NCBI GenBank assembly: GCA_950295325.1
Contig: OX485808.1
Span: 14,838,527-14,902,526 of the forward strand
Direction: 5' to 3'
Source of the DNA: Polytrichum commune
Taxonomy: Eukaryota > Streptophyta > Polytrichopsida > Polytrichales > Polytrichaceae
Length of the DNA stretch: 64,000 bases
A model generated the notes under the pieces. The model saw only the letters and a program-made list of their open reading frames with translations. It ran no database searches and had not been told where the DNA came from. Of this stretch, positions 14,678 to 48,500 are shown in pieces; position 1 is the stretch's first letter; the number at the start of each line of letters is the position of its first letter. The position numbers were made by a program, and so were the translations under genes.

Positions 14678-15119
14678 TGTCACGTGAGGTGACATCGGGG
14701 GCTAAGTTACGTCAATTTAGGAGTAAATGGACTCCATTAGGAGTCCATGTGTGTTGGGATGAATAACGGACCCCATTGGGAGTCCTAGTTAGTTGTTCAT
14801 CCACTCCATGGATGAACTCCACATAGGATTGGGGTTGTATGGAGAGGAAGGCCTCTTGACTTGCCATTGTTGTCAAGTCAAGTTTTGTGAGTGTGTTTTG
14901 ATAGAGAGAGAGAGTTTGTTGTTGCTTTCTCATGGCTATGGTGTAGTAGATTATGAGTAAAGCCTTTGCATTCTTTCTCCACCACTTGCACTCTTGGATT
15001 CTCCCTTCGTGGAGTGAGAGATAGCTTGACTCTTGTGTGTGAATTTTAGAGTTTCTTAAGCTTTGTAAGGAGACATTTTAGTTTCTTAAGCTTGGAGAGA
15101 GAAACCCTCATACTTGACA
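14678..15119 (+). repeat. 5' LTR (about 442 bp)
   Basis: It begins TGTCACGTGAGG and ends CTTGACA, giving a terminal inverted repeat TGTCA...TGACA. Relative to the 3' LTR it has an extra GTAT near 14840 and an extra GA in the GAGAGA run. The first 205 bases contain five hairpins, described in the findings. Confidence 0.9.
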
Positions 15120-15472
15120 ACAATTGTTCAAATTTTTCATTTTTGGTTGTATTTCTGAGCTAGAATGGCCCAGTAATGAGAGCAAATGAGTGATACAAGT
15201 GTTTGAAAGCTTAGTTCGTCATTTCTTGCAATCCTCAAGAAGATTTTGAGAGAAATCTTCCCATTTTTCTTTGTTGTCTCTTGTATTTTCTTCAATTGTT
15301 GATGGTTGAATCTTGAGATTCCATTTAGTTTCAAGATTCTCAAGTCACATTTTCTTGCTTGCAAATTGTGAAGCAAAGTTTAATTTAAATACAAACATAA
15401 ACCACAATCAAAATCCGATTTAGTTTTTAATTTTGGTTGACCTCCGGACGGATCCGGAGCTCACCGGACCCT

Positions 15473-15618
15473 CTTGGAGCTCCTGGAGCTCCAATTCTGA
15501 ACCCCGGGGGCGGCAAATCCCGGGCCGGGGGCGGCAGATCACGGGCTGGGGGCGGGCGGGCGGCAACCTGGCAGCGGGCCGGGCTGGGGGCGGGTGGGCG
15601 GCGCCAGCCTGGCCCCCC
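15473..15618 (+). repeat. GC-rich G-run block in the leader
   Basis: Repeated GGGGGCGGCA / GGGGGCGGGCGGGCGG units make a roughly 150-bp CpG-dense island in otherwise AT-rich DNA. The many G runs could form G-quadruplexes on the plus (RNA-sense) strand. Confidence 0.75.
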
Positions 15619-15950
15619 TTTCAAGGTAAGCTTTGCCTTTAATTAAGTTAGTTAACTTAATTAGTTAATTAGGTTAGTTAATTAAATTAGGTTAGCTTAA
15701 TTAATTAGGTTCATCAGTTTAAGTTAATTAAGTTAGGTTGAGTTAAATTTAATTAATTAAGTTTATTCATTTAAGTTTATTAAGTTTATTTTTTATTTTG
15801 TTTTATTTTGTTTTTGTTTTTGTTTTGTTTAATTAAAACAATTATTTTATTTTATTTTATTTTATTTTTCACATTTTTATTTTCACCTTTCAAACTTGGC
15901 ATCCAATTCTCACAAACTTTGAGGTTCAAATTTGGGGGCATACTAGCTCC

Positions 15951-16218
15951 GATTGGAGTGAAATTTGAGCCTATCTTGTGTGAAATTTGCCAAGGAATCC
16001 AATGGTGTAATTGGATTGTTGATTGGAATTTAAAATCATTGTTGAAATTATTAATTTCAACGCTGATTTTTGTTTTTGGGAGCAAATTAACTCCTAACGG
16101 AGTGAAATTTGAGCCTAATTTGTGTGAAATCTTCCTAGGAGTCCATTGGTGCACTTAGTTTGTTGATTGGAGTCCATAATCACCTTGGAAATGAGCCTTT
16201 TCAACGCTGATTTTTCAT
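15951..16218 (+). repeat. Direct repeat of about 125 bp in the leader
   Basis: Copy 1 (about 15951-16075) and copy 2 (about 16094-16218) share GGAGTGAAATTTGAGCCTA, TTGTGTGAAAT, TTGTTGATTGGA and TTTCAACGCTGATTTTT-like ends. They diverge by roughly a quarter, so the duplication is older than this insertion. Confidence 0.7.
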
Positions 16219-16370
16219 TTTAATTACCAATCTCAAACCTTTGCACAATTTTGGAATTCTGGGGGCATAAACACTTGGCATTTGGCAAGGGATTGCCATT
16301 TAGATAGCCCGCAACAGGTGCAGGTTGCCATTACCTTGTAGATAGTTGCAGGTACTCAAGTGATTATTTT

Positions 16371-19300
16371 ATGGTGCAAACTAGGAGCCGATATTATCGA
16401 TCTCCATCACCAGATTACTTGGAGGACGTGCATACCACAAATCTTGAGCCAGAGGTAGATACCAACGAGGCTTTTGAGCCTATTTCGGCGTTGGACACTA
16501 CTAGTAGGCTTCGGATTTGGAGTGTCGGCACGTTCGACGAAATGGAGGACGATCGCCACAATTCAGTGCGTGATCGGTTTTCAGGTCGAACTGGGGGCAT
16601 TTCCTTGCCCGATTGGAAACTCCGGTTTCGTACCTGGATTAAGGAGAAACGCCAAAGGTCTTCCAATTTCAATGATTGGTATGCCTTTGAACTTCTGCCT
16701 CAACATTTGGAGTATGAGGCACTCCAAACTTATGAACGCTGGACAGAGGGTCATCAACGACAACTTCGGGAGGTGGAGCAGTATTGGGAGGCTCGGGTTG
16801 AGCTCATTTCAGCCCTTAAGGATGGGGCGGTTGCTACCTTAGCTCCACCCACCTTAAAGGAGGAGGAATCGCCGGCGGAGTCTAAGGACACGGAACTGGC
16901 ACTTGGGCCAATGGTGGCTAGCAGTAGCATGGCAACCCTTTCACGGGTGGCACGTGCTACACAGGCAGCATTGACGGTTGTTGGTCCACTACCTCCGTTT
17001 AATCCCCTTACTGAATTTGTCGCACATTTGGAAGTGGAGTATGGTGGGTTTCGGCGAGACCAGATGCAGCGCATCCAAGATTTCCGCCGAGAGAAGGATG
17101 ATACTCCACGGACCATATATACGCGACTCGCGAGATTTGCTGTGGAGTCGGGAGGTGTTTTTGCTGAGAGTCAGCTTGTTAAAATCTTTTTGTCTAAGAT
17201 TGACAAGCGGCTACTTGAGTTGGCATCACCTCGGATTATCCTCGACTACGAGGGCCGAGCTACACTTGCACAAGCGTTTGCCGTGGTTGAGAGATGTGAT
17301 CGGGCTCTTTGCCAACATGATGCCACGGATATGGTATCTTGGATGACAGAGAGTCCGAAACCAAGAAGAATTGTCACAGCTACTAGTAGTTTAGCTGAGA
17401 CTCAACCCGTCAAGGAGCAAAAGATTTTGCATTGTTGGGGTTGTGGAGAAGCTGGTTATTCGAAGAATGATCCTAATTGTCCTAAGAAGAAGAAAACTCA
17501 GCCTTTGGGAAAATTAAAACAAAAGATGGAACCAGTAAAGGCAGGGGACAATTCTAAAAAGAGACAATTGAAATGTAACCATTGTGGTGGCACTAATCAC
17601 GATGTGGATCATTGTTTCCAACTTCATCCTGAGATGCGGCCTGCCAGTTATGTCACTGGAAAGTCTCCAAGGGAGCATAGTCTTGAGGCTAAGGTGGCAG
17701 AGCTTAAGCAAAAGCTCAAATCTTTTGCATCTTTTGCTCAAATTTCTGAGCCGTATGTGGGTGGTGGCACCTCGGGTTCGGACATGTATATGTTTGGAGC
17801 AGCTGGAGAGGTGGTGGCGGCGGCTTCTACTCGCTCACAAACATTGGCAGATGCGGTGGCTTCCACGAGTGGTGGTAGCAACGAGGTGCTACATCCTCGC
17901 CATGCCGGACCAGCTGATCAAATTGGTCAAGCACATTTACCTCTTTCATTTGGATTGGTAGACACCACTGTTATTGGGGCTAAAAACCCTGTACCTTTGA
18001 GAGATGGGGATTCCATCTCGAAGGATGTTACGCAGGCATTGGTATATAAAATTCTCCATATGCCAATTTTCTCGGGTTCGGAATTTATGGCTTCGGATTT
18101 CAAGCCTGCTGCAGTTTTTCATTTAGCTGGGAGAATGTTAGAAGGTAAGGCGGATTTGCCATCCCTTCAAGTATCCCAAGCTGTGGTTGACGTACCTGTG
18201 GCTGAGGAAGTGGAGGACTTAGCCAATTTGCGAGCGAATCTTGCGGATGCGGCGATCATTGCTTTTGGTAAGCAAACTGATATTCCTCCAGCATCAATTT
18301 CAGCAGTGGATACGTCATTTTCGAATTATGCGTCGGGAGCGGCATATCTTGCAGACATTTCTGCAAGGCCTGCTCGCGAACGGCATAATTTGCAACCTGG
18401 AGTTGTACGGCTGATGAACGATAAATCTTTGTTTGTCGTTTCACGCACGGATATGCCTACTATCCGTGCTACACTACTGAGAGTTATGATGGATTCCGGT
18501 GCTCAACCGGTTATGATTGGCAAAGGACTTGCTGACAGTCTTGGATTGACGCCAGCAAGCTTGGATCCTTGTCCATTCACTATTGTGACTTCAGTAGGGG
18601 GCACTGAATGTGCAACAGGTTACACCAAGGCACCTCTACGTTTGATTTTTCATGTGGGGGCAGGGCCTACTTACACTCATTTGTCAATGAAGTGTGTTGT
18701 TACTAATGCTACCAACTATGATATGCTTGTTGGTCAGCAAGCTCTTTACCCACTTGGCTTTGGTTTGGATAATTGGACGGAAGAAGCATGGATTAGACCG
18801 GAATGGTCCACTGGAGATGGCAGGAAGGTATTTATTCCCGTCACATTTGCAGCCACTGCTATGACTATGGTTGCGGAGGCAATGTTTGGTTGCAGCGGTT
18901 CAGTTGCAGATTTGCCTTGTGCTCTAGTTTTATTGGAGGAAACAATGGACTACATTTGTAATGTGGCAGAACAACAATTTTTACCATCTTTCCAAATTCC
19001 TGCTCGACATTTCAAGGATCCACCTCCACCATGGCGAACTCCTAAGGAGTTATCCGACCATTGTCGACACATTGTAGCGGATTTGGAGCTTGGAGAGGCA
19101 CCTCCAACTTCATCCTCATTTTCTTTTGCTCAACCCATTCGTTGGCAACCATCACCTGAAGGTATTGTCCTTGTGGAGATCTTTGGAGGCATTGGCACAG
19201 GTTTGGCGGCAGTGTTGGAAGCTGGAATTACAGTTTGGCGATATATTCATGTGGACAATGGGTATGCAGCCAACAGAGCCGTCCGACACCACATCCAACA

Positions 19301-20468
19301 ATTGTTGTTGAGATACCCCGCACAATTGTCAGCCTCTGTCATTCATGGATGTTGTGGTCAACTTCCTCAAGATGTCACCATAATTAGTGATGAGGATTTG
19401 AGAAGGTTGGGCCACGTGGATTTGATTCTTGCAGGATGGCCTTGTCAAGGCCATTCGCGGGCAGGAACTGGCCATGGATTGGATGATCCTAGGTCTAGTT
19501 TGTTTGCTGATTTGATGCGATTGATGCAATGGTGGTTTACCCACCAATCAACTCCGCCAGGGTACATTTTCAAAAATATACCATTATTGGATGATACCCG
19601 GCACAAAGTGGTGAAGGATGGTGAGTACATTAACCAAATTCTGGGTACTCCAACATTTCTGGATGCTGCATCTTTGGGATCCTTTGCTCATCGGCCTCGT
19701 TGGTTTTGGACCAACTTGGTATCACCTCGGGTGCTTTCAGCGGCGATTGCCCGCATTCCCCGCCTTATGGATCGCAAGGTGGATGACATTTTAGATGATC
19801 ATCGTGTTTCCTTGGCAGTTACCAAGGATGACACCTTGCCATTTGCATTAATTAACAATGTGGGAATTCCGAGAGGTGCACTACCTACTTTTGTGACATA
19901 TCCACAGTCTTTTGCATTTCGATCTCATGGACCTGGCATAGTTTGGGATTCAAAATTCCAAACTTATGAGGAGCCTACGGCAGATGAGCGGGAATGCGCC
20001 ATGGGTTTTCTTACAGGTACCACGGCTGCTCACGGGCTTGAGGAAGGTCAGAGACGTTTCCTATTGGGGCAAGCTATGGATCTTAATAGCATTGTGTGGA
20101 TAATTGGAATTTGTCTTGTTGCTCAACAACGTATGGATGACCAATTGCTTACTCTGAGGGCAGAGAACAATGGTCAGGGGGCAATGGAGCCGCAATCCAA
20201 TTATCACATTAAGGTCAATGACACCGAGGGATTATTTCCTTTGAAACTTCATGTTGCGGAAGAGCTTCGAGCCCAACGTGTTTTTTCGGCTTTGGCCCAA
20301 GAGTTTGAGAAGTTGGAGGCCCATAAAATGTTTTCACTTCTATTTCTTGGTGATACTTCATATGTGGGTAGCTATTTAGCTACACAAACTGATTGTAGTG
20401 GAGAGGATACGCATTTGGATTCAAGTACAGATGATGGGGGCAAAGGTGTTGCCCTCTCCACGGACTAA
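16371..20468 (+). CDS. Retrotransposon ORF1: gag, aspartic protease and C5-cytosine methyltransferase
   Basis: A 1365-residue polyprotein. Residues ~70-340 look like gag (SLPDWKLRFRTWIKEKRQRS). Two zinc knuckles follow: C355-C358 with Tyr at the usual His position and an altered last spacing, then a perfect CX2CX4HX4C at 402-415. The protease motif is MMDSGAQ, with D708. Residues ~930-1260 form a C5-methyltransferase: motif I VEIFGGIGTG (~935-944), motif IV AGWPCQGHS with nucleophile C1025, motif VI YIFKNIP with K1068 where the family has catalytic Glu (ENV), motif VIII AHRPRWFWTN (~1106), and late motifs ECAMGF (~1208) and LLGQAMD (~1231). Family knowledge: such enzymes methylate DNA C5. Inference: it would mark the element's own DNA or target chromatin, but K1068 predicts loss of activity in this copy. 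The first Met follows the leader and begins the gag homology. Fusion of protease and methyltransferase ahead of pol is unusual. Confidence 0.9.
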   Translation: MVQTRSRYYRSPSPDYLEDVHTTNLEPEVDTNEAFEPISALDTTSRLRIWSVGTFDEMEDDRHNSVRDRFSGRTGGISLPDWKLRFRTWIKEKRQRSSNFNDWYAFELLPQHLEYEALQTYERWTEGHQRQLREVEQYWEARVELISALKDGAVATLAPPTLKEEESPAESKDTELALGPMVASSSMATLSRVARATQAALTVVGPLPPFNPLTEFVAHLEVEYGGFRRDQMQRIQDFRREKDDTPRTIYTRLARFAVESGGVFAESQLVKIFLSKIDKRLLELASPRIILDYEGRATLAQAFAVVERCDRALCQHDATDMVSWMTESPKPRRIVTATSSLAETQPVKEQKILHCWGCGEAGYSKNDPNCPKKKKTQPLGKLKQKMEPVKAGDNSKKRQLKCNHCGGTNHDVDHCFQLHPEMRPASYVTGKSPREHSLEAKVAELKQKLKSFASFAQISEPYVGGGTSGSDMYMFGAAGEVVAAASTRSQTLADAVASTSGGSNEVLHPRHAGPADQIGQAHLPLSFGLVDTTVIGAKNPVPLRDGDSISKDVTQALVYKILHMPIFSGSEFMASDFKPAAVFHLAGRMLEGKADLPSLQVSQAVVDVPVAEEVEDLANLRANLADAAIIAFGKQTDIPPASISAVDTSFSNYASGAAYLADISARPARERHNLQPGVVRLMNDKSLFVVSRTDMPTIRATLLRVMMDSGAQPVMIGKGLADSLGLTPASLDPCPFTIVTSVGGTECATGYTKAPLRLIFHVGAGPTYTHLSMKCVVTNATNYDMLVGQQALYPLGFGLDNWTEEAWIRPEWSTGDGRKVFIPVTFAATAMTMVAEAMFGCSGSVADLPCALVLLEETMDYICNVAEQQFLPSFQIPARHFKDPPPPWRTPKELSDHCRHIVADLELGEAPPTSSSFSFAQPIRWQPSPEGIVLVEIFGGIGTGLAAVLEAGITVWRYIHVDNGYAANRAVRHHIQQLLLRYPAQLSASVIHGCCGQLPQDVTIISDEDLRRLGHVDLILAGWPCQGHSRAGTGHGLDDPRSSLFADLMRLMQWWFTHQSTPPGYIFKNIPLLDDTRHKVVKDGEYINQILGTPTFLDAASLGSFAHRPRWFWTNLVSPRVLSAAIARIPRLMDRKVDDILDDHRVSLAVTKDDTLPFALINNVGIPRGALPTFVTYPQSFAFRSHGPGIVWDSKFQTYEEPTADERECAMGFLTGTTAAHGLEEGQRRFLLGQAMDLNSIVWIIGICLVAQQRMDDQLLTLRAENNGQGAMEPQSNYHIKVNDTEGLFPLKLHVAEELRAQRVFSALAQEFEKLEAHKMFSLLFLGDTSYVGSYLATQTDCSGEDTHLDSSTDDGGKGVALSTD

Positions 20469-20474
20469 CAATCA
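20466..20474 (+). promoter_or_regulatory. Stop-codon readthrough signal between ORF1 and ORF2
   Basis: The stop and next two codons are TAA CAA TCA, matching the tobacco mosaic virus-type readthrough consensus stop-CAR-YYA. ORF1 and ORF2 are in the same frame, with no other stop between them, and the first downstream ATG is at 20508. This fits low-frequency readthrough that makes a gag-pro-methyltransferase-pol fusion in limited amount, as many retroelements require. Confidence 0.65.
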
Positions 20475-23400
20475 CAGGTTGTGCTGGCACCAAGTGGCAA
20501 TCCTTCTATGAAGAAGGAAACCACGGAGTTTGACGATTGGCCAATTGAAGTGGGGCCAAAGCTTACTAGTGCCGAAGCACGAAAAGTACGGGCATTTATT
20601 CGCTCTTACCGTAATTGTTTTGCCTTTAGTCTTCATGATCTTGAAGGATATAAAGATAAACCTGTTTGTATTCAACTCGAGGACGACCACCCTATTTTCA
20701 GACGGCCGTACAGACTTAGTACCTCTGAAAGGTTGGGTGTTCAAACTCGATGTCAAGAGTTATTGGCAGCGGAATTGATTGAACTCTCCAATGGAGAGTA
20801 TGTTTGTGCCACGGTTATGCCGTCAAAGAAGGATATCTTTGGCAATTGGACGGAAAAACGGATGTGTGGTGATTATCGTCCAGTCAACCGCAAGACCAAG
20901 TCGGATCGATATCCAATGCCGATGCCGGAGGAGTTGTTTGATGCACTGGAATTTTCTAGAATCTTCAGCACTCTGGATTTGAGGTTTGGTTATCACCAAT
21001 TACCTTTGTTGTTGGGTGATCGGGTGAAGACCGTATTTTGGGGAATTGATAAAGATGGCAAGGATCAACTTTATCATTGGAAATTTCTGCCATTTAGTCT
21101 CAAGAATGCACCAGCTGAATTTCAGCGGGTGATGGACCAATTATTGGCTGGTTTGCCATTTGCTAGATGTTACATTGATGATGTTATCATCTTTAGTAAT
21201 AGTCCACATGATCATGTGAGACATTTGCAAGCGGTATTTGAACGACTTCAACGGTGGGGACTCCGTTTACATCATGGAAAATGTAAGTTTTTCCATGATC
21301 AATTGCCCTATTTAGGCCACATGATTGTTCCTGGCGGTCTTGGTGTGCAATTGGCGAAGGTGGATGCTTTGCACAAAATTCCTACACCTAGTGATGTACC
21401 ACAGCTTCGTGCATTTCTAGGATTGGCAAATTATTATAGGAGGTTTGTCAAAAACTTTAGTTTGATTGCCAAACCTCTTACCATTCTCACGGGGAAAGAC
21501 CAACCATGGATTTGGAGTCGGGAACAACAACAGGCATTTGATACATTAAAGCAGAGGCTCGGTTCAGCGCCAGTGCTTCGACGTCCGGATGTGTCTAGAG
21601 CTTTTCAATTGCACACGGATTGGAGTGCAGTGGGATTGGGAGCGGTATTGACACAGAAAGATGAAGAGGGAAAGGAATATGTGGTGGCTTATGCATCTAG
21701 AAGCAATAATAGTGTTGAATCTAATTATTCTTCTTATGAAGGCGAGGCCTTGGCGGCTGTTTGGGCCATTGCACATTTTCGACCTTATTTGTATGGGCAA
21801 AAGTTTACTTTGGTGACTGATCATCAGCCTTTAAAATGGCTTATGGAATCAGATAAGCTTACCGTGAAACTTGCTAGGTGGGCATTGTTACTTCAGGAAT
21901 ATGATTTTGAAGTTGTTCACCGAGCAGGAATTGCCAACTTGGATGCAGACGGATTGTCTCGCAATCCAAGTCCTTCAGATGAGGATTTAACTGGAGCCAA
22001 GTGGCATGGAGATTGTGATCGTGAGGCAGTGTCGGGTTGGCATGCTGCCACATATCTCACAATGATGTCGGAATTGGCTGCTGAGATCCTTGTAGAAGAA
22101 CAAGATGAGGAGGTTGATAAATCTCTCGTTGTTAGTGATGTGTGGGAAGACCAGGCGGTCTTGCACAAACTTCAACAAGGGGTATTTTCTCTTGGACTAT
22201 CTGCTATGGAGCGAGATAGAGTTAGTCACCGGATAACAAGGTTTCGTTGGGCAAACAGCTTGTTATTTCGTGTGTGGCCGAACGGAACGAGGCGCATCGT
22301 TCCAAGGCCAGATCAAAGAGCTTATTTGGTGCGGCAAGTGCACGAGGAGCTTGGATATTTTGGAGTGCGAAGGACGCACTCTATGTTGCGCAACCAATAT
22401 TTGTGGACTGGTATGTATCAACAGGTTGTCACTTATGTTTCTCGGTGTGAAGTATGTGACCGGGTTAGATCAAGTTTTAATACTTTGTCACCTCAACTTC
22501 AACCTTTACCTATTATGGGCTTGGGATATCGTTGGTCTTTGGATTTTGCCGGACCGCTTACTATCACTCCACGTGGTTCCAAGTATGTGTTTGTGATGGT
22601 GGAGCATTTTAGTAAGTGGATTGAACTCGTGGCTCTTCCCCAAAATTCCTCAGAATTGGCGGCTATGGCATTTCTTGATCGAGTTTTGGCACGGTTTGGG
22701 GCACCTGCAGAGGTGTTGACGGATCAAGGGAGAGAATTCCTTGGATCTTTCGAGGCTTTGTGTACCAAGGCTTTGATTGATCATCGGACAACTTCCAGAG
22801 ATCACCCTGAGGCAGATGGCTTAGCTGAACGAGTTGTTCAGACGGTTAAGCGCGGTTTGCGGAAGTATGGATTGCTTCATGGCAACCATCGCGATTGGGA
22901 CTTGATGTTACCATGGATAACAATGGGTTATCGTTTCAGCAGGCAAACATCTTTGGCATCCTATAGTCCTTACCAACTCTTGTATGGACGGGAATCAATT
23001 TTACCTAGCTCGGTGCGAGAGAAATTGGCTCCCGTGGTAAACTTGGATGATCCAGATGTTTGGGCTCAATGTCTTCATGACCGAGCAACGTTCTTCCAAA
23101 AGGCCATGCCTATGGCTATGGAGAACTTAAATATTGCTCAACATCGTGATACATTACGGTATGCCCGGATCCGCAGTGGAGCTTATCGACCTCAGGTTCG
23201 TAGATTTTCCAAGGGAGATTATGTTTACTTGCAACGGGAGGCGCCTACGACATTGGATGTCAAGGCTGGGCGCACGATTTTGCGGATAAAAGATGTCTTG
23301 CCAAGTGGTATATTATTGCTTGAAGGCAAGGATGGACGGGAATGTCGTGAGCATTCAAAGAATTGTGCTCCATGTCACCTTCCCATCGACGGCTCTGTGC

Positions 23401-23612
23401 ATCCCGAGTTGGCGGTTGTACCACAGGGTCTGCCTTGTTATGTTTGTGGAGAGAAGAAAGGAGCTGCAACAATGTTATTGTGCGACCAATGTCAACGTGG
23501 ATGGCACATGGCATGTTTGACACCTCCCATTTTTACTCTTCCTTCTGGCAATTGGGTTTGTCCTCGTTGTCGGAAAGCCTCTCATTCCATGACCGTTAAT
23601 GGTCATGATTGA
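20469..23612 (+). CDS. Retrotransposon ORF2: reverse transcriptase, RNase H, integrase and PHD finger
   Basis: Numbering here counts from the codon at 20481. The reverse transcriptase has LKNAPAEFQRVMD and the catalytic YIDD at 231-234. RNase H follows with HTDWSAVGLGAVL (D380), YEGEALAAVWA and TDHQPLKWL. The integrase zinc region has H621 and C656-C659, but Tyr replaces the second His (LGYFGV for GH.G). The catalytic triad is D688, D748 and E783. After the core, a C-terminal PHD finger spans 986-1030 with all C4HC3 ligands: C986, C989, C1001, C1004, H1009, C1012, C1027 and C1030, plus the usual W1025. PHD fingers read histone H3 tails. Here one takes the place of the chromodomain of chromoviruses, so it may steer integration (inference). 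There is no ATG near the start, consistent with translation by readthrough of the TAA at 20466. Confidence 0.92.
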   Translation, partial: QSQVVLAPSGNPSMKKETTEFDDWPIEVGPKLTSAEARKVRAFIRSYRNCFAFSLHDLEGYKDKPVCIQLEDDHPIFRRPYRLSTSERLGVQTRCQELLAAELIELSNGEYVCATVMPSKKDIFGNWTEKRMCGDYRPVNRKTKSDRYPMPMPEELFDALEFSRIFSTLDLRFGYHQLPLLLGDRVKTVFWGIDKDGKDQLYHWKFLPFSLKNAPAEFQRVMDQLLAGLPFARCYIDDVIIFSNSPHDHVRHLQAVFERLQRWGLRLHHGKCKFFHDQLPYLGHMIVPGGLGVQLAKVDALHKIPTPSDVPQLRAFLGLANYYRRFVKNFSLIAKPLTILTGKDQPWIWSREQQQAFDTLKQRLGSAPVLRRPDVSRAFQLHTDWSAVGLGAVLTQKDEEGKEYVVAYASRSNNSVESNYSSYEGEALAAVWAIAHFRPYLYGQKFTLVTDHQPLKWLMESDKLTVKLARWALLLQEYDFEVVHRAGIANLDADGLSRNPSPSDEDLTGAKWHGDCDREAVSGWHAATYLTMMSELAAEILVEEQDEEVDKSLVVSDVWEDQAVLHKLQQGVFSLGLSAMERDRVSHRITRFRWANSLLFRVWPNGTRRIVPRPDQRAYLVRQVHEELGYFGVRRTHSMLRNQYLWTGMYQQVVTYVSRCEVCDRVRSSFNTLSPQLQPLPIMGLGYRWSLDFAGPLTITPRGSKYVFVMVEHFSKWIELVALPQNSSELAAMAFLDRVLARFGAPAEVLTDQGREFLGSFEALCTKALIDHRTTSRDHPEADGLAERVVQTVKRGLRKYGLLHGNHRDWDLMLPWITMGYRFSRQTSLASYSPYQLLYGRESILPSSVREKLAPVVNLDDPDVWAQCLHDRATFFQKAMPMAMENLNIAQHRDTLRYARIRSGAYRPQVRRFSKGDYVYLQREAPTTLDVKAGRTILRIKDVLPSGILLLEGKDGRECREHSKNCAPCHLPIDGSVHPELAVVPQGLPCYVCGEKKGAATMLLCDQCQRGWHMACLTPPIFTLPSGNWVCPRCRKASHSMTVNGHD

Positions 23613-24045
23613 GAATTTTGTGGATGTTTACCACATGTTTTAGTGGTGAAGTTGTTATTTAGTTGGTTGGAAATTTTATGGAATTAAGACCACATTGAAA
23701 GAGTTATCCAAGAATTCAACATTAATTGTTGAAGGCGATTAAAGATGGGGCTCACATTGCATCCAGCCTACAGTTCTTGGATTACTTTGTCAATCACGAG
23801 TTTAATTCCTTCGATTACTACTACCCAATTAAATATGTATAGATGTAGCAACAACTTCATCATGTTCAACAACTCTACCGATGAGTGTGTTTGTTCCTAG
23901 CCGATTGGAGGGGCTCCTTATCTGCTAGTGGGGGCACTTGAAGAGGTGGTTGTCTAGCATTTTAGTTTGTTATTTTATTTTGCTAATTGATGTTAACAAC
24001 GACACTCGATCTGTTGTGTTTAACAATCTTAGTTTACACGACAGC
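23613..24045 (+). other. 3' untranslated region of the retrotransposon
   Basis: No open frame. Purine-rich GATTGGAGGGGC and CTAGTGGGGGCA lie at about 23903-23937, but the bases next to the LTR (TAGTTTACACGACAGC) are not a polypurine tract, so the plus-strand primer site is not identified. Confidence 0.6.
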
Positions 24046-24480
24046 TGTCACGTGAGGTGACATCGGGGGCTAAGTTACGTCAATTTAGGAGTAAATGGAC
24101 TCCATTAGGAGTCCATGTGTGTTGGGATGAATAACGGACCCCATTGGGAGTCCTTGTTAGTTGTTCATCCACTCCATGGATGAACTCCACATAGGATTGG
24201 GGTTGGAGAGGAAGGCCTCTTGACTTGCCATTGTTGTCAAGTCAAGTCTTGTGAGTGTGTTTTGATAGAGAGAGAGCTTGTTGTTGCTTTCTCATGGCTA
24301 TGGTGTAGTAGATTATGAGTAAAGCCTTTGCATTCTTTCTCCACCACTTGCACTCTTGGATTCTCCCTTCGTGGAGTGAGAGATAGCTTGACTCTTGTAT
24401 GTGAATTTTAGAGTTTCTTAAGCTTTGTAAGGAGACATTTTAGTTTCTTAAGCTTGGAGAGAGAAACCCTCATACTTGAC
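24046..24480 (+). repeat. 3' LTR (435 bp)
   Basis: It begins TGTCACGTGAGG and ends CATACTTGAC, then continues directly into CTACAAGAAG of the interrupted family A copy. The terminal A of the expected TGACA end appears lost or changed. It is about 99% identical to the 5' LTR apart from the two short indels. Confidence 0.9.
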
Positions 24481-48399: not shown

Positions 48400-48500
48400 A
48401 GGTAGGTCTGTCTGGCTCCCTGCACGCCAGCTGAGGAGCCCCCCAATCACTTTGGCAAGCTCCGAAGGTGGCATACAGGGAGCCAGGCAGTCCTAGCTCC
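48400..48500 (-). ncRNA. MIR160: MIR160 microRNA precursor
   Basis: Minus strand 48489-48469 is an exact match, from memory, to the 21-nt plant miR160 (TGCCTGGCTCCC... ending TGTATGCCA). The opposite arm at 48427-48407 (GCGTGCAGGGAGCCAGACAG...) pairs with it and resembles miR160*. The mature sequence is on the 5' arm, as in known MIR160 genes. The loop is about 40 nt and contains a secondary stem (GGAGC / GGCTCC). In land plants miR160 directs cleavage of auxin response factor mRNAs of the ARF10/16/17 type. The primary transcript should start at higher coordinates; the tandem repeat at 48655-49410 lies on that side. Confidence 0.92.

Follow-up and report, generated by a model that had tools for sequence, protein, structure and literature searches.

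A Ty3/Gypsy retrotransposon family of the moss Polytrichum commune carries a DNMT3-type C5-methyltransferase together with a C-terminal PHD finger on its integrase, and the frames holding the two domains are separated at nearly every readable locus by a stop codon in a tobamovirus-like leaky context. The element in the window, that is, the whole 64,000-nucleotide stretch of DNA analysed, is read here as one decayed copy of this high-copy, recently active family, in which several further copies are young and have open frames. Based on the domains, their joint presence, the split repeats, the stop signal and the recent copies observed in the sequences, the best explanation, favoured with slightly better than even confidence, is that a leaky stop would dose the enzymes, the element would methylate itself and integration would be tethered to histone H3.

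Plants silence transposons by DNA methylation, which makes it puzzling that an element should bring a de novo methyltransferase of its own. In the proposed mechanism, most ribosomes would halt at the UAG and yield the bulk Gag-protease-methyltransferase, and a minority would read through into reverse transcriptase (RT), RNase H, integrase and PHD. The methyltransferase would be carried in the particle and methylate the element's DNA copy, which would then bear the mark of silent DNA on entering chromatin. The PHD finger belongs to the class that lacks the cage tryptophan of H3K4me3 readers; it would hold the integrase on H3 tails with unmethylated K4, a tether that may steer insertion off active promoters.

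Organization of the element

Two open frames (16308-20468 and 20469-23612) abut at 20466-20468 and share one reading frame (Table 1). Pfam placed DNA_methylase in ORF1 at 35.3 bits (cut-off 22), with protease matches that were weak and below cut-offs, and RVT_1, RT_RNaseH, Integrase_H2C2, rve and PHD in ORF2, the last at 39.2 bits (cut-off 24). The initial annotation had proposed a complete C4HC3 PHD finger closing the integrase ORF and a methyltransferase flanked by protease and RT; both were borne out by the HMM search of the two frames, the methyltransferase motifs it had named lying at 19176-20081 and the C4HC3 zinc ligands being present in the PHD. The best solved match of ORF2 was the Ty3 Gag-Pol polyprotein (E 4.6e-96), and the protease-RT-RNase H-integrase order with a Ty3-like RT, as in Ty3/Gypsy elements, was found. 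No tyrosine recombinase, the mark of DIRS elements, was listed by Pfam, rve and Integrase_H2C2 being present instead; nor did Pfam list a chromodomain after the integrase at E up to 1, and the PHD finger stands there. An NCBIfam search returned just the broad dcm and IS481 models, and no relatives in viral contigs were found by viral-contig scans. The leader holds two 144-bp tandem units, 77% alike, at 15931-16218. Elsewhere in the window, a MIR160 precursor with the exact mature sequence lies on the minus strand at 48406-48492; miR160 being a land-plant gene, this agrees with a land-plant host.

Table 1. Features of the element, in window coordinates
Feature	Positions	Strand	Remarks
Terminal repeat A1, 5'	14678..15117	+	440 bp, begins TG
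Leader	15118..16370	+	begins CAACAAT; by eye, probably not a primer site of the tRNA 3' CCA type
ORF1: Gag-like region, protease, methyltransferase	16371..20468	+	first ATG 16371, 1365 aa; frame open from 16308
CCHC zinc knuckle	17574..17615	+	sequence pattern
Aspartic protease	18477..18746	+	weak Pfam match below cut-off; DSGA at 18492-18503
DNMT3-type C5-methyltransferase domain	19164..20138	+	motif VI at 19569-19583, without catalytic Glu in the window copy
Stop codon between in-frame ORF1 and ORF2	20466..20468	+	UAA then CAAUCA in the window copy
ORF2, frame identical to ORF1	20469..23612	+	ORF list, Pfam
Reverse transcriptase	20850..21326	+	Pfam RVT_1, match to solved structure
RNase H	21588..21902	+	Pfam RT_RNaseH
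Integrase: H2C2 zinc domain and DDE core (rve)	22311..22808	+	Pfam, match to solved structure
PHD finger, C4HC3, integrase end	23436..23570	+	Pfam, sequence pattern
Repeat B1	23937..24043	+	107 bp, ends CA, then GC
Repeat A2	24046..24479	+	flank directly after in the window copy (no B2)

Copies and subfamilies

In the genome searched (407.8 Mb, seven large contigs), at least 123 methyltransferase places were scored by Pfam search (352 candidates), the window copy not being among them, and at least 150 places were scored with the integrase-tail-PHD stretch of the window as query (608 candidates). At no fewer than 61 of the 123 methyltransferase places the PHD stretch follows downstream, on the same strand, at a distance of 3.4-4.4 kb (median 3597 bases), so that the pairing is not confined to the window copy and a lone chimeric copy, an outcome considered in the initial annotation, is rejected. 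Twenty further copies, chosen from places in both lists, were fetched and fall into two subfamilies, A (the window's own, with 18 other copies) and B (2 copies). Both frames are open and full length in 8 of the 21 copies, window included.

State and constraint of the methyltransferase

The domain is of DNMT3 type, with unrearranged motif order and DNMT3 as its nearest kin in comparisons that included Foldseek VIA-align for the fold. The motif IV PCQ is present in 20/20 other fetched copies, and the catalytic Cys is also kept in the window copy; motif VI, which is not among the motifs named in the initial annotation, reads FEN in 19/20, the remaining copy (L028) having no match to the motif VI pattern, and FKN in the window copy. 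With its Cys in place and its Glu replaced, the window copy's own methyltransferase is probably inactive. The initial reading of an element with its own writer and reader stands for the family, which carries a DNMT3-type writer and a PHD that is a likely reader, but probably not for the enzyme of the copy in which it was noticed. Of 71 changes private to the window copy, 57 are C-to-T or G-to-A and 39 of those 57 are in CHH context, a pattern that fits methyl-cytosine decay; one copy, L017, was misaligned in this comparison and was excluded from the within-A selection test.

Between subfamilies A and B, pn/ps values, which are upper bounds on dN/dS with synonymous sites near saturation, were 0.33 for the methyltransferase, 0.21 for PHD, 0.09 for RT, 0.07-0.08 for integrase and 0.62-0.63 for the ORF1 tail. 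Within subfamily A, pN/pS was 0.64 for the methyltransferase (p 0.024, 14 copies), i.e., weak constraint, and 0.20 for RT; for PHD it was 0.55 with no detectable constraint (p 0.21, 17 copies). These two sets of ratios indicate that both domains have been retained over long spans of time, with constraint that is weaker or unclear in the recent past.

Such recent weakness would suit the idea that the methyltransferase is a slowly decaying passenger, captured long ago into a tolerant part of Gag-Pol and with little present role in transposition, as would the catalytic Glu lost in the window copy and the 29 of 120 listed relatives that have RT-RNase H-integrase-PHD and no enzyme in the same frame, although in those it may sit in a separate upstream frame, as in the window. 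This idea is considered unlikely, in view of the FEN retained in nearly all other copies, the A-versus-B ratio of the enzyme, its two positions each forming one clade in a tree of 53 rows, and 41 invariant columns, motif IV Cys included, over 14 family members with identity to the window copy down to 35%.

The PHD finger and the target of the enzyme

Among the matches listed, PHD was found in 118/120 homologs, including Haematococcus and Volvox proteins, a share that is biased upward because the search query contained the PHD; the strict C4HC3 pattern was found in 114/120. At the residue two before the zinc-binding His, Gly was found in 110/114 homologs and Trp in 0/114. PHD fingers that read H3K4me3 have Trp at this position, and an H3K4me3-type PHD is therefore rejected on sequence alone, with no cage Trp in any of the 114. 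The solved relatives by sequence are mostly CHD4, PHF12, KDM5/Lid, PHF21A, ATXR5, UHRF1, AIRE and others, several of which read unmodified H3K4. From these sequence hints and what is known of the relatives, the PHD finger is a putative reader of unmodified H3.

Insertions were spread over the large contigs with KS p >0.05 on six of seven and 0.010 on C4 (211 places), so that no targeting was visible at the megabase scale across the seven contigs, a scale that does not decide site choice. The lack of a signal at that scale would also agree with a distinctly unlikely scheme in which the PHD is a general chromatin tether and the enzyme targets element RNA or host DNA, for instance to dampen host defence or to keep deaminases off the cDNA; the authors of the 2018 paper on retrotransposon DNMTs (PMC5890265) named both RNA methylation and a protection from editing as options. 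Against it stand the DNMT3-type fold and motif order, a likeness rather than a result of tests on the moss family, and the de novo CG methylation by retrotransposon DNMTs stated in the abstract of that paper for other elements than the moss family. Methylation of the element's own DNA copy, with integrase held at H3 tails, thus stays the preferred reading.

The stop between the frames

Of 26 distinct loci in hand, 24 were readable (L030 and L005 gave no pattern match), and UAG followed by CARYYA was found between the frames at 23 of them. Four variants occur after the UAG, CAAUCA, CAAUUA, CAGUUA and CAACCA, all within CARYYA; the 24th locus is the window copy, with UAA and CAAUCA. In both subfamilies, intact copies have ORF2 directly after ORF1 and in phase with it. 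In tobamoviruses, UAG with CARYYA is described as the signal for type I readthrough (PMC5382211), and 32% readthrough is given for the TMV signal in tobacco leaves, lower with UAA or UGA (PMC2754532). The moss arrangement resembles it in placing UAG and CARYYA between two in-frame products and differs in that the host element is a retrotransposon, known here from sequence. The occurrence at 23/24 loci suggests that the methyltransferase is probably made at the Gag level and that Pol-PHD is made only via readthrough. An ordinary stop, with ORF2 expressed by reinitiation or from another RNA and the CARYYA context an inherited chance, is very unlikely: the loci share ancestry and so are not independent, and possible ORF2 starts follow soon after the stop (GTG at 20481), but A and B are near synonymous saturation with all four variants still UAG and CARYYA, and the frames abut in phase in both.

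Split repeats, ends and age

Two full-length matching LTRs, as expected of Ty3/Gypsy, were not found, and a plain LTR pair is rejected since most copies carry split A/B repeats. Among the 18 subfamily A copies fetched besides the window copy, 13 have the typical order A1-body-B1-GC-A2-B2: 10 are complete, one has a shortened B2 and two run into the limit of the sequence fetched. Of the remaining five, three end at B1, one is cut off inside A2 where its sequence stops, and one carries an additional A piece, with no B2 within the sequence fetched. The split B1-A2-B2 order also holds for the two subfamily B copies. In the window copy A1, B1 and A2 are present and B2 is absent; the terminal repeats annotated initially at 14678 and 24046 are accordingly real, but they are not plain LTRs, the 3' one being A2 of the split system.

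The element starts with TG and ends with CA (in B), and target duplications of 4 bp were found in 3/3 copies with both flanks in hand. For the window copy the duplication is unsure: ACCT lies on either side of the element only when the 3' boundary is placed one base before the repeat end. A1 and A2 are identical in 9/14 valid comparisons (stretches of 116-439 bp, some partial; L024 and L027 were left out, the pieces compared there not being A1 and A2); in the window copy the two differ at 4 of 434 sites. Within 9/10 copies B1 matches B2 exactly, despite a B length that varies from 105 to 107 bp across copies, which indicates that B2 is remade at each cycle. At 14860-14880 of the window the repeat contains a stretch complementary to 15113-15124, i.e., the repeat 3' end with the first leader bases (CTTGACAACAAT). 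With this self-complementary repeat and no TGG-type tRNA primer site after it, self-primed reverse transcription is possible. The three copies ending at B1 (L019, L026, L029), with no A2 or B2, look as if two kinds of DNA product integrated. In contrast to the other copies, the window copy has an A2 that terminates (24479) as A1 does and gives way to flank; this may reflect either a third kind of product or later recombination.

Position, relatives and origin of the enzyme

Among the matches listed, single-frame relatives with the enzyme carry it between RNase H and integrase in 42/45, many of them pieces without RT, and before RT, as in the window, in 3/45. In the tree of the enzyme (53 rows, of which 7 are unlabelled), the two positions lie on opposite sides of a single branch (support 100/99) and require one change each, the position of 20 of the 25 pre-RT rows being inferred from a separate frame holding no RT. 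In the integrase-PHD tree (76 rows), the RNase H-integrase position requires 2 changes and the 5 pre-RT rows require 5, the pre-RT rows being interspersed with others in whose frame no methyltransferase is seen. The two trees agree only broadly, and both one early capture with one move and two captures from related sources fit.

Green algae and a liverwort have relatives of these parts, in the liverwort as unnamed Marchantia proteins that carry the methyltransferase; no proteins named Klebsormidium were among the matches listed. P0010 and P0022 come from the same source, where the longest contig has 8955 bases, which suggests that they are both frames of one element of another species. P0141, with a methyltransferase 73% like that of the window, is filed under Candidatus Obscuribacterales bacterium on a 2.4-kb contig and is probably a misbinned plant contig.

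With a writer that occupies two positions, either of them one clade of the enzyme tree, and a PHD that is a near-constant partner among listed homologs, a broader view may tentatively be put forward: an old green-lineage Gypsy clade of chlorophytes, charophytes and land plants would pair a DNMT3 writer with a reader of unmodified H3K4, rebuilding the animal DNMT3A logic of reader domain plus methyltransferase as an integrase-tethered reader and a Gag-level writer, with the writer:integrase ratio set by a tobamovirus-type leaky stop.

Comparison with known systems

The charophyte precedent named in the initial annotation is real: KnitGypsy-Dnmt3 of Klebsormidium nitens has Gypsy domains and DIRS-structured repeats according to the legend of Fig. 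4 in PMC5890265. It shares with the moss family the Gypsy-type domains, an unrearranged DNMT3-type enzyme, DIRS-like repeats and purifying selection on the enzyme, as far as that source describes it; the moss family differs in its land-plant host, the PHD on the integrase and the leaky UAG between methyltransferase and RT. With a DNMT3-type domain in a Gypsy Gag-Pol and DIRS-like repeats, the moss family is by structure a DNMT3-bearing Gypsy of the kind known from Klebsormidium, with PHD and leaky stop added; the main text of PMC5890265 mentions neither PHD nor moss. SymbioDIRS-Dnmt3 and SymbioLINE-Dnmt of dinoflagellates, from the same paper, are alike in being retroelements that bear a cytosine methyltransferase, but they are DIRS and LINE, not Gypsy; the streptophyte and dinoflagellate cases are repeated in Sarre 2025.

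Within open-access PMC, by title and start of abstract (subscription papers and preprints lying outside), no paper was found that reports the combination from a land plant, or a Gypsy integrase bearing a PHD. The claim that the combination is undescribed in land plants holds to that extent, but the kind is not new to them as sequence, because Marchantia proteins already carry the methyltransferase. Chromoviruses are Gypsy elements with a C-terminal chromatin-reader domain on the integrase, a chromodomain where the moss family has a PHD. They include Tcn1-like elements of mosses (PMC3350952, PMC2864245). The CR1-like elements with PHD (Kapitonov and Jurka 2003, as cited in PMC5408684) are alike in having a PHD in a retroelement and different in being non-LTR.

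Implications

The known Gypsy case so far is one charophyte alga with few copies. If the leaky stop works, every terminated Gag chain would bear the methyltransferase, and RT, integrase and PHD would be made in smaller amounts, so the conserved stop amounts to a concrete prediction on the dose of each enzyme. In conclusion, a recently active, high-copy land-plant family with open copies and a histone-reader-like integrase domain would, if this picture is true, turn self-methylation and PHD-guided site choice into testable questions.
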